Shown here: positions 2,248-14,935 of the stretch, piece after piece
Numbering within the stretch: position 1 is the stretch's first letter
Layout of the letters: each line of letters begins with the position of its first letter
IMG/VR virus record: IMGVR_UViG_3300022144_000138
Span: 1-24,511 of that record
Origin: a virus
Strand: one strand, 5' to 3'
DNA length: 24,511 nt
The notes under the pieces: generated by a model
What the model was told of the DNA's origin: nothing
The model's input: the letters and a program-made list of their open reading frames with translations, nothing else
The model's database searches: none
Program-made: the position numbers and the translations under genes

Positions 2248-2432
2248 GCCGCACCCGCGCCCGCTATCCGACCAAGGCCGCGATTGCCCGCGCCGTCGAG
2301 ATGGCGCGCGCCCTTGGGCTTGACGTTGCCTCGATCGCGGTATCACCTGACGGCACGGTGCGGACGCTGCCCCTGGCGGCGGTCCAGCTGGCGCCAGTCG
2401 GGGAGAACGACGGATGGGCCGACTTCAAATGA
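2244..2432 (+). CDS. small basic phage protein upstream of integrase, 62 aa
   Basis: The N-terminus is Arg/Lys-rich (MSRTRARYPTKAAIARAVEMARALG) and likely helical, followed by a short beta segment (VASIAVSPDGTVRTL) and a GWADFK end. Small proteins of this plan regularly sit immediately before tyrosine integrases in alphaproteobacterial phages. A recombination directionality factor (excisionase) would fit the size, charge and position, but no diagnostic motif is visible, so this is only a hypothesis. The last 19 nt overlap the integrase gene. Confidence 0.75.
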   Translation: MSRTRARYPTKAAIARAVEMARALGLDVASIAVSPDGTVRTLPLAAVQLAPVGENDGWADFK

Positions 2433-3517
2433 AGAACGTCGCCACGCGCGGCGGGCGCCTCTATTACCGCACCAAGGCCGGCGGCAAGGAACTGTTCTTC
2501 CGGCTGCCCGCGCTCGATGACCCGCAGTTCGCTGCCGAATATGCCCGCCACGCCAAAGGCGACACGACCCCGGCGCCGCCGGCACGCGGCAGCTTCAAGG
2601 CGCTGTGCATCGAGTTTCGCACCCGGCTGCCGTTGATGACCCGCAAGAACGGCAAGCCGCTGGCGAAGGCCACGACCGAGAACTACCGCCGCTATGTCGA
2701 CATGATCGAACGCGATATCGGCAGCCGCCCGGTAAAGGGCCTGGCCCCGGCGCACGTCTTCATCCTGCGCGACCGCTATGCCGAGACGCCGGGCACCGCG
2801 AACAACTACCTCTCGGTGCTGCGCCTGATGATGGGCTTTGCGATGCAGCGCGACGCCAGCCTCAAGCACAACCCCGTCGCCGAGGTGCCGGCGCTGCCGC
2901 TTGGCGAGCACGAGCCGTGGCCCGACCGACTGCTGATCGCTGCCCTCGATGCCGCCACCCCGATGACGCGCCTGGCGGTCATCACCGGCCTGTGTAGCGG
3001 GCAGCGCATCGGCGATGTCATCAGGATGCAGTGGGGATGGTGCCAGAACGGCGTCATGCAGCTTGTCCAGGAGAAGACCGGCAAGCATGTCGCGGTGCCG
3101 ATGCACCCGATCTGGCGGGCCGAACTGGCGAAGCACAACCGCAAGGCGGTGACCCTGCTCTACGATCGCAGCGGCAAGCCCTTCGCCGAGGACGCGACCC
3201 TGCGCGAGCGCATCGTCGACATGATGGCGCTGCCCTCGGTGCGTGCCGCCCATGCCGAATGTGTCGCTGCCGAGGAGTGCGGGGCCGATGCCCGGTTCAC
3301 CTATCACGGTCTGCGCAAAAACGCCGCCTGCTACCTGTCAGAGACCGGCCTGACCGACGAGGAAATCGGCGCGCTGACCGGTATGTCGCCAGAGATGGTG
3401 CGGCTCTACACCCGCAAAGTCAGGGTGTTGCGCATCGCCAATGGACTGGCCGAAAGGCTGGCAGGTGGAACGCCGATCCCGCTCAAGGTGGAACGCTCCC
3501 GCGCCGCCGAAAAATAA
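2414..3517 (+). CDS. int: tyrosine-type site-specific integrase
   Basis: A 367-residue integrase of the lambda Int family. It has an N-terminal arm-binding-like segment (about 1-60), a SAM-like core-binding domain (about 60-165, with TTENYRRYVDMIERDIG) and a catalytic domain. Catalytic residues are R198 (GQRIGD), probably K221 (QEKTGK), H298 and R301 (YHGLRK), and nucleophile Y332 (MVRLYTRK). The usual second His/Trp position appears as Met324 (TGMSPEMV). I chose 2414 because GGGGAG lies 9-10 nt upstream and MGRLQMK resembles homologous N-termini; the ATG at 2429 (overlapping the upstream TGA) is an alternative. It directly abuts a tRNA-Glu fragment that is its likely attachment site. Confidence 0.93.
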   Translation: MGRLQMKNVATRGGRLYYRTKAGGKELFFRLPALDDPQFAAEYARHAKGDTTPAPPARGSFKALCIEFRTRLPLMTRKNGKPLAKATTENYRRYVDMIERDIGSRPVKGLAPAHVFILRDRYAETPGTANNYLSVLRLMMGFAMQRDASLKHNPVAEVPALPLGEHEPWPDRLLIAALDAATPMTRLAVITGLCSGQRIGDVIRMQWGWCQNGVMQLVQEKTGKHVAVPMHPIWRAELAKHNRKAVTLLYDRSGKPFAEDATLRERIVDMMALPSVRAAHAECVAAEECGADARFTYHGLRKNAACYLSETGLTDEEIGALTGMSPEMVRLYTRKVRVLRIANGLAERLAGGTPIPLKVERSRAAEK

Positions 3518-3518
3518 T

Positions 3519-3536
3519 CCAATCAAAACAGATTGG
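3519..3536. repeat. inverted repeat next to attP
   Basis: CCAATC (3519-3524) and GATTGG (3531-3536) form a perfect 6-bp inverted repeat around AAAACA, just after the integrase stop. The right arm overlaps the CCA end of the tRNA fragment. It could be an integrase arm or core site, a weak terminator for int, or chance. Confidence 0.4.
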
Positions 3537-3575
3537 TGATCCCTACGGGAATCGAACCCGTGTTTTCGCCGTGAA
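3534..3575 (-). other. attP: attP core: 3' half of tRNA-Glu(UUC)
   Basis: Read on the minus strand, these 42 nt are the anticodon UUC, the 3' anticodon stem (GGCGA), variable loop AAAC, T-arm (ACGGG TTCGATT CCCGT), acceptor strand AGGGATC, discriminator A and an encoded CCA. The plan matches tRNA-Glu position by position. The match ends exactly at the anticodon: the next base upstream is G where U33 should be, and no D-arm or 5' half follows. Integrases often use such tRNA 3' halves as the identity segment so that the host tRNA is restored on insertion. Phage genes flank it on both sides and int is 17 nt away, so it is attP and not a working tRNA gene. Confidence 0.85.
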
Positions 3576-3613
3576 CAGCAAAAACCCTTTGAGATCAAGC
3601 GGGCGTTCCACAA

Positions 3614-3648: not shown

Positions 3649-4488
3649 TTACAGGGTCGGGGGAACGTCGGGAAGCGGGAAATTGCTGACGATCAGTTCC
3701 GTCACCGGCTTGCCCGCGCCGGCCACCTTTGTCGCCAGCGTGTAGGTCGTGGCGACATCGGTGATGTGGAAGCGGGCGAAGGTCTCGCGGGCGCCGGCCG
3801 TCGCGTTGATCGAGAGCAGGAACTTGCCGCTGATGCCGGCCAGCTGCTCGGCCAGTGCGGCGAAGTCAGACCGGCTAAAGACGCCCTCACCATAGTCCGT
3901 CTCATTCCCCCAATAGGGCGGGTCGAGATAGAACAGCGTCGCCGGCTTGTCGTAGCGGGTGATGAAGTCGGCAAAGGGCAGCCGCTCGATGGTCACCCCG
4001 GCCAGGCGCTCGTGCAGATCGGCGAGCATCGGCTCCAGTTTCGTCACGTCGAATCGGGCGGGCGTCCGCGCGTCGACGCCGAAGTTGCGGCCATGCACCT
4101 TGCCGCCGAACGCCAGGCGCTGGAGGTAGAGGAAGCGGGCGGCGCGTTGCAGATCGGTCAGCGTGTCGGGCGGGACGGCCATCAGGCGGTCGAACTCGGC
4201 ACGGCTCGAGAGACGCCAGCGCAGCATGTCGATGAAATAGGGATAGTGTTCCTGCAGGACGCGGAACAGGGTCACCACATCGGCGGAGATGTCATTGATC
4301 TTCTCGGCCTTGGCGCGGCGCTTTCGCCGCAGGAAGATGCCGCCCATCCCGATGAACGGCTCGGCATAGGTTTCGTGGGGCGTGGCATCGATGATGCGGC
4401 ATAGCCGCTGCGCGAGGTTGCGCTTGCCGCCGACATAGGCGGCGACGGGTGCGACAGCGACGCCGTCGATTCGGTCTAGAGACTCCAT
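3649..4488 (-). CDS. DNA adenine methylase (D12/Dam class)
   Basis: A 279-residue N6-adenine methyltransferase of the Dam/D12 class. Visible motifs are the SAM-binding start (YVGGKRNLAQRL, 18-29), motif I (AEPFIGMGG, 42-50) and motif IV DPPY (189-192, in LFYLDPPYWG). The start at 4488 removes a low-complexity upstream extension and has CAGGTAA about 8 nt upstream. It is the last gene of the late operon, separated from the o-spanin by 142 nt, and lies beside attP, a typical place for cargo genes. It probably protects phage DNA against restriction or alters host regulation; the target site cannot be read from sequence. Confidence 0.93.
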   Translation of the reverse strand: MESLDRIDGVAVAPVAAYVGGKRNLAQRLCRIIDATPHETYAEPFIGMGGIFLRRKRRAKAEKINDISADVVTLFRVLQEHYPYFIDMLRWRLSSRAEFDRLMAVPPDTLTDLQRAARFLYLQRLAFGGKVHGRNFGVDARTPARFDVTKLEPMLADLHERLAGVTIERLPFADFITRYDKPATLFYLDPPYWGNETDYGEGVFSRSDFAALAEQLAGISGKFLLSINATAGARETFARFHITDVATTYTLATKVAGAGKPVTELIVSNFPLPDVPPTL

Positions 4489-4630
4489 GGCTGTTACCTG
4501 ACATAGCGCCCCCGCCGGTGCGCCCGGTGCGGGGACTGAAGGCTGCGCGCGCAGCCCAAGGTGCGGGTGACCGCCCGCGGTTCGAGGTGTTACAGCACCC
4601 CGACCCCCCGCTTTCACACGAGAGGGAATT
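4489..4630 (-). promoter_or_regulatory. structured non-coding leader of the methylase gene
   Basis: This 142-nt gap is unusually large for an otherwise overlapping operon. It contains a 16-nt perfect palindrome at 4541-4556 (GGCTGCGCGCGCAGCC), a tandem octamer CCGGTGCG at 4515-4522 and 4524-4531, and a GCGGG/CCCGC pair around 4564-4579. No convincing promoter boxes are visible. It may hold a terminator of the lysis genes, a methylase operator (many methylase genes control themselves) or a structured RNA leader. Nothing coding is seen. Confidence 0.4.
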
Positions 4631-11460: not shown

Positions 11461-12080
11461 TAGAAGCCCTCCTCGGCGACAAAATCGCCGGGCTGATAGA
11501 TCGTGCCGGGGGTTGCTTCCCATGCCAGCGGGTCGCGCATCCGAACCGTGCAAACCGGGTTTGAAAGCGCGACGCCATCGTTGTCGGCAGGAGACTTGCG
11601 CAGCGGTGTCGTCAACGTCGCCGTGCCATTGCCCGCACCATCGGCGACGAGGTTGGCGCCAAGCACGATCGGCTGCCAGAAATCACCGGGGATCACCACC
11701 ATGATGATTTGGCCGGCGACAAGGTTGGTGACGCCGGGCGCCAGTCCTTTGAGGTTGAGCGAATAGCCAAGCTGGCCGCCGCCGTTGACCTGGCAGTCGG
11801 TTGGCCGTCCGGGAATGGTCACCTGCAACCGCTCGACCATCGATAGCCGCGCGAAACTGTCGGGCCGCTTCATCTGCGCCAGAAAGCCGCGCAGCGTCAC
11901 CATCTCATCAAGCGTGCGCGGCACCAGCCGCCCCGTTGCAAACCAGCGTTCCGCCGGGCCAAGCTGCACCGTCCGCGTGGCACCGGTCAGTTCGGAACGG
12001 TTGACCTGATAAGCGGGCGGCTGTGTCCATTTCATGCCGGCCAGACGCAGCCCTGCCGGAATCGCGATGATCGCCATCAT
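11460..12080 (-). CDS. distal tail (Dit)-like protein, 206 aa
   Basis: The first gene after the tape measure, where siphophages encode distal tail or M-type minor tail proteins. It is beta-rich: an N-terminal MKWTQPPAYQVNR segment, a GAERW-type core (LGPAERWFATGRLVPRT) and a C-terminal stretch with GDFWQPIVLGANLVADGAG and ATLTTPLRKSPADND, a pattern common in Dit-like proteins of alphaproteobacterial phages. Start ATG at 12080 overlaps the tape measure stop (12077-12080); a second ATG follows directly. Function is inferred from order and pattern. Confidence 0.8.
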   Translation of the reverse strand: MMAIIAIPAGLRLAGMKWTQPPAYQVNRSELTGATRTVQLGPAERWFATGRLVPRTLDEMVTLRGFLAQMKRPDSFARLSMVERLQVTIPGRPTDCQVNGGGQLGYSLNLKGLAPGVTNLVAGQIIMVVIPGDFWQPIVLGANLVADGAGNGTATLTTPLRKSPADNDGVALSNPVCTVRMRDPLAWEATPGTIYQPGDFVAEEGF

Positions 12081-13834
12081 GCCCCTCGTGATGTTGGAAT
12101 GCGCCCGCGCGTGGCGCTGCGAAACGTCTCGCCGGCTGCATCCCGCCCGGCCTGCGCCGATGCCGTCGCCACGCTGGTAATGAACAAGGGTGAGGGCTGC
12201 ACATCGACCGAAACCGCTACGGCCTGCCGACTGCGGTTCTCGCCGCCCGCCATGCGCGCCACCTTGCGGGTTGCATCGGCGGTCATGATCGTGCCGGCGC
12301 CGTTCGGCATGAACATCTCGGGGCCTTTCTCGCCGACGAGATAGGCTTGCCCCGGCTGCACCGGGCCACCGATGGCCTTGCCGCCGCCGAACAGCCCGCC
12401 GAGGAACGATGCCGCCGCACCGAACAATCCACCGCCCGAGCTGCTGCCGCCGTCGCCGTTGAACAGCGACTTGAGCCCGGAGGAGATCAGCTCGGCGCCG
12501 GCCGAACGCAGGCTGTTCACCAGCACGTCGCCGAGCGAGCGGCCGTAGGCGACTGCGTTGCCGAGGTCTTCGGCCAGGCTGTCCCCGAATTTCTGTGCCC
12601 GGTCGAGCAGATCAGGCGTGATGACATCGATCTTGGGAATTTCGATCGCAGTGACCTTGATGTCCTGGAGCTGCTTCCCGAAGTCGTAGCTGCTGTCGAC
12701 GATGTCCTTGAGGCCCTGCGAGATGCCACCGTCGCGGCCGAGAACGTCCTGCAGCGTGTCGAGCCCGCCCATGCGGACATCGCTGGCGCTGAGGCCCTTG
12801 TAGATGTCCTCGGGCGTCTTGCTGCCGCCGCTGCGCGACCGGGACGGCTTGCTCTTGCCAAGCACCGGGCGGTCCTCGCCGCTGCCTGTGGGGCGCGGCG
12901 TGCGATTGCCCGCGGCCTCGAAGTCCTCGGCGGCACGCAGGAACTGCCCGCGCCGGGTGACATCGGACGGGCTGAAAATCTGCGCACCGAGCGCCGGGAG
13001 GAAGCCCTGTTTCTTGCGGATGTCCGCCGTGCCGGCAAAGAAATCGCGGATGTCCCGGATGCCGGCGCCCGCCTTGCTGGCAAGCACCCCGACTGCATCG
13101 GCGAGGTAAAGGATGCTGTCGGCATTCTCCGCCACCGTCGATGCGATGTTGGCCTCCAGCACGGTCTTGACCGCCGACAGTTTGTCGGCCGCGTCATCGG
13201 CCTTCTGGATTTTGTCGTCGGAGATGACGACGCCCAATTTCTCGGCAGCCGTGGCCAGCGCATCGATGGCGCCGCGCCCGCCCGACAGCAGCGTGTCGAG
13301 TTTCTGCCCGGCCTTGCCGAACAGATCGACCTCGATCGCCGCGCGCTTCGCCGGGTCCTCGACCTTGGCCAGTCGCTCGGCGATGAGCCGGATCGCTTCG
13401 CCGGTGTCGAGCTTGGCAATCTGCGCCTGCGAAATGCCCAGCTGGCCGAACGCCGCCGTCGCCGAGGTGCTGCCCAGCTTGGCATCGCCGAGCGTCTTGG
13501 TCAGCTTGGCGAGGCCCTTGTCCATCGTCTCCTGATCGATGCCCACCTGCGTCGCCGCATAGCGAAACACCTGCAGGTCCTTCGTCGTCACGCCAAGTTG
13601 CTGCGAAACCTCGCCGAGCGAGGACGCATATTCGAGCCCGCGGTTGACGACGCCGACGACGGCATCGATCCCGATACCCGCCACGAGGCCGGCGGCGGCG
13701 CCCTTGAGCACGCCGAACGCCTTGTCGATCTGCCCGACGCCGCGGTCCGCCGCATCCGCCGCCTTCTTCATGTTCGAGATGAACGACGACGATTCGAGCG
13801 TCAGCGAGGTGTAGAGGCTGCCAACCTGTGCCAT
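12077..13834 (-). CDS. tail tape measure protein
   Basis: A 585-residue tape measure protein. The N-terminus (AQVGSLYTSLTLESSSFISNMKKA) is typical; helical, Ala-rich segments follow, with hydrophobic patches at about 40-65 (GAAAGLVAGIGIDAVVGVV) and near 465-490 (GGGLFGAAASFLGGLFGGG). The C-terminal signature PGQAYLVGEKGPEMFMPNGAG is characteristic. The start at 13834 is supported by GGGAGGC upstream and by a one-base TGATG overlap with the T chaperone stop. At about 0.15 nm per residue its length suggests a tail of roughly 85-90 nm, which is an estimate. Confidence 0.95.
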   Translation of the reverse strand: MAQVGSLYTSLTLESSSFISNMKKAADAADRGVGQIDKAFGVLKGAAAGLVAGIGIDAVVGVVNRGLEYASSLGEVSQQLGVTTKDLQVFRYAATQVGIDQETMDKGLAKLTKTLGDAKLGSTSATAAFGQLGISQAQIAKLDTGEAIRLIAERLAKVEDPAKRAAIEVDLFGKAGQKLDTLLSGGRGAIDALATAAEKLGVVISDDKIQKADDAADKLSAVKTVLEANIASTVAENADSILYLADAVGVLASKAGAGIRDIRDFFAGTADIRKKQGFLPALGAQIFSPSDVTRRGQFLRAAEDFEAAGNRTPRPTGSGEDRPVLGKSKPSRSRSGGSKTPEDIYKGLSASDVRMGGLDTLQDVLGRDGGISQGLKDIVDSSYDFGKQLQDIKVTAIEIPKIDVITPDLLDRAQKFGDSLAEDLGNAVAYGRSLGDVLVNSLRSAGAELISSGLKSLFNGDGGSSSGGGLFGAAASFLGGLFGGGKAIGGPVQPGQAYLVGEKGPEMFMPNGAGTIMTADATRKVARMAGGENRSRQAVAVSVDVQPSPLFITSVATASAQAGRDAAGETFRSATRGRIPTSRGA

Positions 13835-14112
13835 CAGCTTGCCTCCCTCATCTCGTCGTATCGATCGAACCACCCGAGCAGCTTGCTCGCCACGTCGTCA
13901 TCCTCGACCGGCGGTTCCCATGTTTTCAGGAAGTCGGCGGGCGTCGCCGGCTGCCCGCTGCTCGATGCGGCGTTGACCGCCAGCGAGGCGAGCAACCGGG
14001 CGGCGTCATCGGCGCGCGGCTGACCGAACGGTTCGACCAAGCTGTAGGCCATCCATTCGGTCAGTTCGGCCGATGACAGCACCGATTGCAGCTCGGCGAC
14101 GGTGCGCCCCAT
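13834..14112 (-). CDS. tail assembly chaperone T, made as G-T fusion
   Basis: The 92-residue frame after the ATG at 14112 carries GRTVAELQSVLSSAELTEWMAYSLVEPFG, the typical T/DUF4035-like domain of tail chaperones. The same frame is open without a stop back to 14160, where a slippery heptamer ends gene G, and the read-in part (RRFLFRLALAMGRTV) looks like natural T sequence. The genuine product is therefore probably the G-T fusion, and the ATG at 14112 may not be used at all; no good ribosome site precedes it. T recruits the tape measure protein to tail tube subunits during assembly. Confidence 0.85.
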   Translation of the reverse strand: MGRTVAELQSVLSSAELTEWMAYSLVEPFGQPRADDAARLLASLAVNAASSSGQPATPADFLKTWEPPVEDDDVASKLLGWFDRYDEMREAS

Positions 14113-14513
14113 GGCCAGCGCCAGGCGGAACAGGAATCGCCGGCCGGGCCGGCGCGTCAGTTTCCCGCCAGCTCCTCGACATCGCCCTCAGCGATGGCAT
14201 TGAAGCTGAGCACGGCGTCATAGACGCGGCCCAGCGCCGCCGCGCTCTTGCCCCCAAGCGCGACGATGTCCTCCTCGGTGAACAGCGGCTTGCCGTCCTC
14301 CCCGACGATGCACGCAGAGGCATAGCGGGCGCGCACGTTGTCGGGCGCGACAAGGCCCTCCTGTCGCGCCTGGTAGACCGCCGTCTCCAGCGCATCGCGG
14401 TCGCGCGCGGTGAGGGAGCGGATGCGGACGGTGCCACCCCACTCCGGCACCGGCACGTCCTTGGTGGGAAGGTCCTGCGCCCCAAGGATGGCGTCGCGGC
14501 CGAGGACCGTCAC
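13834..14513 (-). CDS. G-T fusion tail chaperone by -1 frameshift
   Basis: Predicted 226-residue product: 118 codons of G (14513 to 14160), then a one-base backward slip so that base 14160 is read twice, then 108 codons of the T frame (14160 to 13837) and its stop. The geometry is a correct -1 shift: G codons and T codons differ by exactly one base in the right direction, and the T frame has no stop between the slip site and its own ATG. Lambda makes its gpGT by the same mechanism, and the ratio G to G-T matters for tail length and assembly. Confidence 0.85.
14138..14154 (-). promoter_or_regulatory. frameshift-stimulating RNA hairpin
   Basis: CGCCGGC and GCCGGCG form a perfect 7-bp all-GC stem with loop CCG. 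It begins 5 nt after the slippery heptamer, the usual spacing for a stimulator of -1 frameshifting. A longer pseudoknot could form but is not obvious. Confidence 0.75.
14157..14513 (-). CDS. tail assembly chaperone G
   Basis: A 118-residue soluble protein with a beta-rich N-terminal part (VLGRDAILGAQDLPTKDVPVPEWGG) and a helical body (SLTARDRDALETAVYQARQEG, LFTEEDIVALGGKSAAALGRVYDAVLSFN). This pattern is typical of G-type chaperones encoded between the tail tube and tape measure genes. The start is GTG overlapping the tail tube stop as GTGA (14510-14513). It ends one codon after the slippery site, so most ribosomes give G alone and a fraction give G-T. Confidence 0.88.
   Translation of the reverse strand: MTVLGRDAILGAQDLPTKDVPVPEWGGTVRIRSLTARDRDALETAVYQARQEGLVAPDNVRARYASACIVGEDGKPLFTEEDIVALGGKSAAALGRVYDAVLSFNAIAEGDVEELAGN
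14160..14166 (-). promoter_or_regulatory. slippery heptamer GGGAAAC for -1 frameshift
   Basis: The minus strand reads G GGA AAC in the zero frame of gene G, a canonical X XXY YYZ site, directly followed by the G stop codon TGA (14159-14157). After a -1 slip the tRNAs can re-pair on GGG and AAA. Lambda's G-T site is GGGAAAG, which differs only in the last base. Confidence 0.88.
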
Positions 14514-14935
14514 GAGCGGGTCACCGTGCCAGTAATCTTCAACGTCGCATTCGCCGTGATCTGGCTGCCGACGCGGGCGCCAGTCTGAAACGACGTTACA
14601 AACGCGGTGAAGCTGAGCGTCTTCTGCAGCGGCGTGGACAGTCGGATGCGAAAGTTGCGGCGGCTAGAACTGTAATAGTCGTTCTCCATGCCCACCTGCT
14701 GCCCATCGGCCTCATCGAGGTTCATCTGCAACGACACGTTCCCGAAGTCGGGCAGATCGGCGATGTACTCTGCCGCGTCCGATTCGAGGGTCGTTACAGC
14801 GATGAGTGGCGTCGAGCCATCCGGCCCGGCAATGTCGCGGATTTCGCCGACGAGGGTGAACACTTCGGGGCTGGCCCCATTGCCGCGCAAAAGCGCAGTC
14901 TTTTTGGACGCCACCGCGCGGGATGGATTGGCCAT
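14510..14935 (-). CDS. major tail tube protein
   Basis: A 141-residue beta-rich protein with a basic N-terminus (MANPSRAVASKKTALL), a core with EVFTLVGEIRDIAGPDGS and a C-terminal part TLSFTAFVTSFQTGARVGSQITANATLKITG. The 'F-L-G---I-GP' core and the arrangement just before the G/G-T chaperones are those of siphophage tail tube subunits. AGGAGA lies 7 nt before the ATG. It should stack in hexameric rings to form the tail tube. Confidence 0.9.
   Translation of the reverse strand: MANPSRAVASKKTALLRGNGASPEVFTLVGEIRDIAGPDGSTPLIAVTTLESDAAEYIADLPDFGNVSLQMNLDEADGQQVGMENDYYSSSRRNFRIRLSTPLQKTLSFTAFVTSFQTGARVGSQITANATLKITGTVTRS

Follow-up and report, generated by a model that had tools for sequence, protein, structure and literature searches.

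A putative lambda-type −1 ribosomal frameshift that fuses the tail chaperones G and T of a long-tailed phage

The stretch of DNA analysed here, called the window throughout, is a virus record of 24,511 bases. According to the PHROG assignments it carries, on the minus strand, the gene order tail tube, G, T and tape measure, and the features that concern the G–T junction are the following.

14510..14935, minus strand: gene of the major tail tube protein, upstream of G (phrog_158 major tail protein, E 5e-17; PF16460/16461 weak).
14513-14157, minus strand: gene G, a tail assembly chaperone of 118 aa, with a GTG start and a TGA stop at 14159-14157 (open reading frame list; phrog_344).
14166-14160, minus strand: putative slippery heptamer G_GGA_AAC in the frame of G (read in the sequence; a canonical heptamer lies at the same junction in 106/115 clusters of relatives).
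14159-14157, minus strand: zero-frame stop TGA, abutting the heptamer (the stop lies 0-3 nt past the heptamer in 36/106 clusters).
14154-14138, minus strand: 7-bp GC hairpin proposed in the initial annotation, with arms 14154-14148 and 14144-14138 and loop 14147-14145 (CCG).
14153-14114, minus strand: second possible stem-loop, longer than the short hairpin and equally stable, in a position similar to that of the stems in stop-adjacent relatives.
13834..14166, minus strand: T part of the predicted G–T fusion, in the −1 frame and entered only via the slip site, 110 codons (GK-LTRRPGRRF...) plus the stop.
12077..13834, minus strand: tail tape measure gene, downstream of T, with an ATG near 13834 (phrog_9483 tape measure, E 4e-32).

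The protein families agree with this order. G matches the tail assembly chaperones of phrog_344 with an E-value of 4e-24 and, under the curated cut-off, the Pfam family PF16459 (Phage_TAC_13, E 1e-4). The −1 product matches PF06223 (Phage_tail_T, the family of lambda T; E 4e-15; 56.3 bits, cut-off 25.9) and phrog_337.

A few other regions of the window deserve mention. By eye, the open reading frame list contains a tyrosine-integrase-like frame at 2414-3517 on the plus strand, i.e. on the strand opposite to G and T. The stretch that follows it (about 3520-3610, plus strand) translates to GDPYGNRTRVFAVNSK, which looks like a translated tRNA end and might be an attachment site; ARAGORN found no tRNA in the window. 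A frame at 3649-4617 on the minus strand resembles, again by eye, a D12-class DNA adenine methylase (AYVGGKRNLAQRL ... DPPYWG).

The minus strand reads ...GCG GGA AAC TGA CG CGCCGGC CCG GCCGGCG... at the junction, so that a spacer of 5 nt (TGACG) separates the heptamer from the short hairpin. The frame of T is exactly −1 relative to G and is open from the slip site until the stop at 13836-13834; its translation reads GK-LTRRPGRRFLFRLALAMGRTVAEL..., also given as GK-LTRRPGRRFLFRLALAMGRTVAELQ..., with the stop ending at 13834. On re-reading the sequence, every position given in the initial annotation proved correct. Taken alone, the heptamer of the window makes a modest argument: away from the junction, the relatives' G genes contain 0.00135 in-frame X XXY YYZ heptamers per codon, and this background gives a chance of about 1.3% over the roughly 10 codon slots of the window's own overlap.

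The relatives carry the argument further. They were gathered by scanning viral contigs with G and with T, by scanning genome contigs once and by searching phages, and together these gave 204 loci matching G or T, the window included. At 190 of the 192 loci that match both genes, the frame of T is −1 relative to that of G. Clustering by shared 12-mers reduced the loci to 115 clusters, and in 106 of these the G–T junction contains a canonical in-frame heptamer, most frequently AAAAAAC (43 clusters) and GGGAAAC (34), followed by GGGAAAA (11) and GGGTTTC (7). Conservation in related phages, which had been named as a check on the signal, is thus found for the heptamer, and on these sequence comparisons its recurrence at the same junction cannot be chance. 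The initial annotation had also pointed to the final C as a departure from lambda. The C is indeed present, but it is not unusual: the last base is C in most heptamers of the relatives (AAAAAAC, GGGAAAC, GGGTTTC), the chief other form being GGGAAAA.

We also looked for relatives in which the slip site is disrupted and the frames are intact, a pattern that was expected to speak against frameshifting. A canonical heptamer is missing from nine of the 115 clusters. Among them are two (L003 and L109) with GGGGGAA ahead of the stop and four (L041, L053, L087 and L100) with GGATTTN in place of the GGGTTTC of others; the latter sequence suggests a slip site that would need re-pairing mainly in the A site. 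In one locus, L091 of Nocardiopsis listeri, G and T run in a single frame across GGGGGGAATGA (2800-2850), a run of six G, while the matching position of L109 reads GGGGGAATGA and has two frames; the single frame may reflect a sequencing error in the G run or a genuine fused gene. In L120 the T match is in the +1 frame, but this match is weak (E 0.8).

The nearest relative, L001, is nearly identical to the window and has the same arrangement of G and T. The differences between the two follow the proposed frames, as 15 of 16 changes in G fall at third positions of the G frame and 6 of 6 changes past the slip site fall at third positions of the T frame. The two sequences are identical over 14189-14114, where about 2.5 changes would be expected at the rate found in this comparison, and we regard this difference-free stretch as suggestive only.

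It is from the −1 relation at 190/192 loci, the heptamers and a peptide that is conserved up to the slip site that we infer a programmed frameshift fusion of G and T. Those features of the lambda type that can be read from sequence are found in the window, namely a heptamer near the end of G, an open −1 frame for T, a position between tube and tape measure, a T domain related to lambda T and a chaperone G. We are therefore highly confident, on the strength of sequence comparison, that the window, from a long-tailed phage, encodes a programmed −1 ribosomal frameshift of the lambda G/G-T type. This was the central proposal of the initial annotation, and the protein families, the −1 relation, the heptamers and the conserved peptide upstream of ATG 14112 support it. 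Its further idea, that the stop abutting the slip site may increase pausing, gained no support from any of the tests.

The part played by the downstream RNA is less clear-cut. The 7-bp hairpin exists as described: CGCCGGC (14154-14148) pairs with GCCGGCG (14144-14138) and has a predicted folding energy of −14.1 kcal/mol on its own. Its role as the stimulator is another matter. The hairpin overlies the codons of the conserved peptide RRPGRR and is largely dictated by these codons at high GC. A hairpin that is equal or better and at the right distance arises in 10.5% of synonymous recodings of the −1 peptide (phage codon usage), and one as good is found at 2.7% of positions in the other coding sequence of the window. 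For the window alone, the downstream fold has a z-score of −1.47 against synonymous recodings, a mild excess over what the coding content would give. Against dinucleotide shuffles the z-score is −0.27, so that the hairpin is not significant by itself.

A different picture emerges from the relatives in which the stop lies 0-3 nt past the heptamer (n=36). The 50 nt downstream are far more strongly folded than synonymous recodings (z −2.95 ± 0.25, compared to −0.73 in a control region) and dinucleotide shuffles (z −2.71), and the excess of folding is confined to that stretch. Relatives with a longer zero-frame overlap show a weak effect (z about −1), although here double coding confounds the comparison with synonymous recodings. 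Strong stem-loops beyond coding constraint can be seen 10-60 nt past the heptamer in the 36 stop-adjacent relatives, for example in L065, L098 and L080, and are weak or lacking in relatives with a longer overlap of G and T.

Across all relatives, however, alifold found almost no consensus structure, because the register of the stem drifts between lineages. When covariation was tested on fixed axes, axis 63 exceeded the synonymous null (z 4.9) and axis 59 exceeded it too, therefore no single conserved stem can be claimed. Comparison of the stem among related phages, suggested along with that of the heptamer, thus reveals selected downstream folding in the stop-adjacent group without conservation of one particular stem. 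For this group, to which the window belongs, a stimulatory stem-loop is likely, even though the window is no outstanding case within it. In the literature searched we found no description of such a selected downstream stem-loop in stop-adjacent relatives.

An explanation that differs in this point, and that is compatible with the preferred one, is that the frameshift is real and that its stimulator is the longer stem (14153-14114), or no structure at all, rather than the 7-bp hairpin. The energies do not separate the two folds, since the longer stem has −21.9 kcal/mol and the short hairpin together with a 3' hairpin has −21.5 kcal/mol. The selected stems of the stop-adjacent relatives are usually about 40 nt long and begin 5-8 nt past the heptamer, which resembles the longer stem, and the dependence of the short hairpin on its codons points in the same direction. 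On the other hand, the short hairpin lies at the classic spacing, and the same short fold is seen in one relative (L130). We consider the chances for and against this explanation to be even. One could further speculate that the G–T family uses two signal designs, one in which heptamers abutting the stop rely on a downstream stem-loop under selection and one in which long-overlap heptamers do without; the window would be of the first design and may alternate between two stems of equal stability. We offer this idea tentatively, as it seems to us rather doubtful as a whole.

The frameshift could be dispensed with if T were a separate gene, starting at ATG 14112 and coupled to the termination of G, which would also be the start chosen by routine gene calling. 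This ATG does open a frame of 92 aa, and in L109 the stop of G overlaps an ATG (GGGGGAATGA), so re-initiation is possible in some members of the family. However, the peptide between the slip site and ATG 14112 has the consensus L-R-x-R-P-x-R-R-F-x-F-R-L-A and ranks with the most strongly conserved portions of T in the 106 relatives (R 102/106, F 95/106, L 104/106, A 101/106), whereas the column of the ATG itself holds L in 90/106 and M in just 7/106. We looked for a Shine-Dalgarno-like sequence before ATG 14112 and found none, and the codon sits 45 nt beyond the stop of G, at the edge of the strong stem. The conserved upstream peptide and the non-conserved ATG speak against a separate start, and we reject a separate T gene as very improbable. 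Least credible of all is that G and T are one gene broken by a sequencing error of the contig: errors are a common cause of frame breaks in metagenome contigs, and the single frame of the Nocardiopsis locus over six G would fit, but the idea is excluded by the identical arrangement in L001 and by the −1 relation at 190/192 loci from independent assemblies, isolate phage genomes among them.

According to the programmed frameshift that we prefer, most ribosomes would end at TGA 14159-14157 and produce the chaperone G of 118 aa. A minority would slip back by one base on G_GGA_AAC, enter the frame of T and read to 13834, probably assisted by the downstream RNA structure, and the product would be a G–T fusion of about 226 residues. 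By analogy with lambda, G may coat the tape measure protein while the T domain recruits tail tube subunits. In lambda about 30 G are made per G-T, and this proportion is important for tail assembly, with G binding the tape measure and T the tube subunit (PMC5009743). For two fs-genes of an HK97-like chaperone cluster, experiments showed frameshifting of 6-7% (PMC3711429). A_AAA_AAG is a far better slip site than A_AAA_AAC in E. coli (PMC5009743), and given this difference, heptamers ending in C may need a stem more.

In practical terms the gene model becomes G together with a G–T fusion of about 226 residues, and the T gene from 14112 is dropped. The view that routine calling misses such fusions holds in part, as Madraxi, Yara and P1312 have no joined coding sequence while Dubu, phiSASD1 and Jflix2 do. 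The window is one more well-supported example of a known rule, and the finding is useful for annotation. In addition, the comparative set offers more than 100 junctions for asking which parts of the signal matter, above all with respect to the prevalence of heptamers ending in C (A-site tRNA-Asn or -Phe) and to the pairing of a selected stem with an adjacent stop.

It is useful to compare the locus with known systems. Conserved G–T frameshifting in tailed phages has been known since Xu et al. 2004 (cited in PMC5009743, PMC3556154 and PMC3483164). Lambda shares with the window a −1 slip on GGGAAA-N close to where G ends, a T of the same Pfam family and the position between tail tube and tape measure genes, its order V-G-T-H being that of the window. 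There are three differences. Firstly, the lambda heptamer is GGGAAAG, as rightly stated earlier, and that of the window ends in C. Secondly, the stop lies 15 nt past the heptamer in lambda, while it abuts the heptamer here. Thirdly, the downstream structure is weak in lambda and strong in the window. The Streptomyces phages Dubu and phiSASD1 have a homologous G (42-43% identity) and T, GGGAAAC-TGA and an annotated joined G–T coding sequence, but they have other hosts and a different stem sequence. Among different phage groups, heptamers ending in C serve the pre-tape-measure chaperone in the Caulobacter phages phiCbK (AAAAAAC) and Colossus (GGGAAAC; PMC3556154), and G_GGA_AAC serves that of the archaeal virus HCTV-1 (PMC5009743). 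Burkholderia phage KL1 (gp18/gp19) likewise has GGGAAAC abutting TGA, a −1 fusion and a predicted stem-loop (PMC3483164; sequence confirmed here), although its predicted structure is weak (−4.9 kcal/mol) and an additional gene stands between the fusion and the tape measure. The observation made on the window is correct, ordinary and not new in kind; GGGAAAC-TGA has already been published for KL1.
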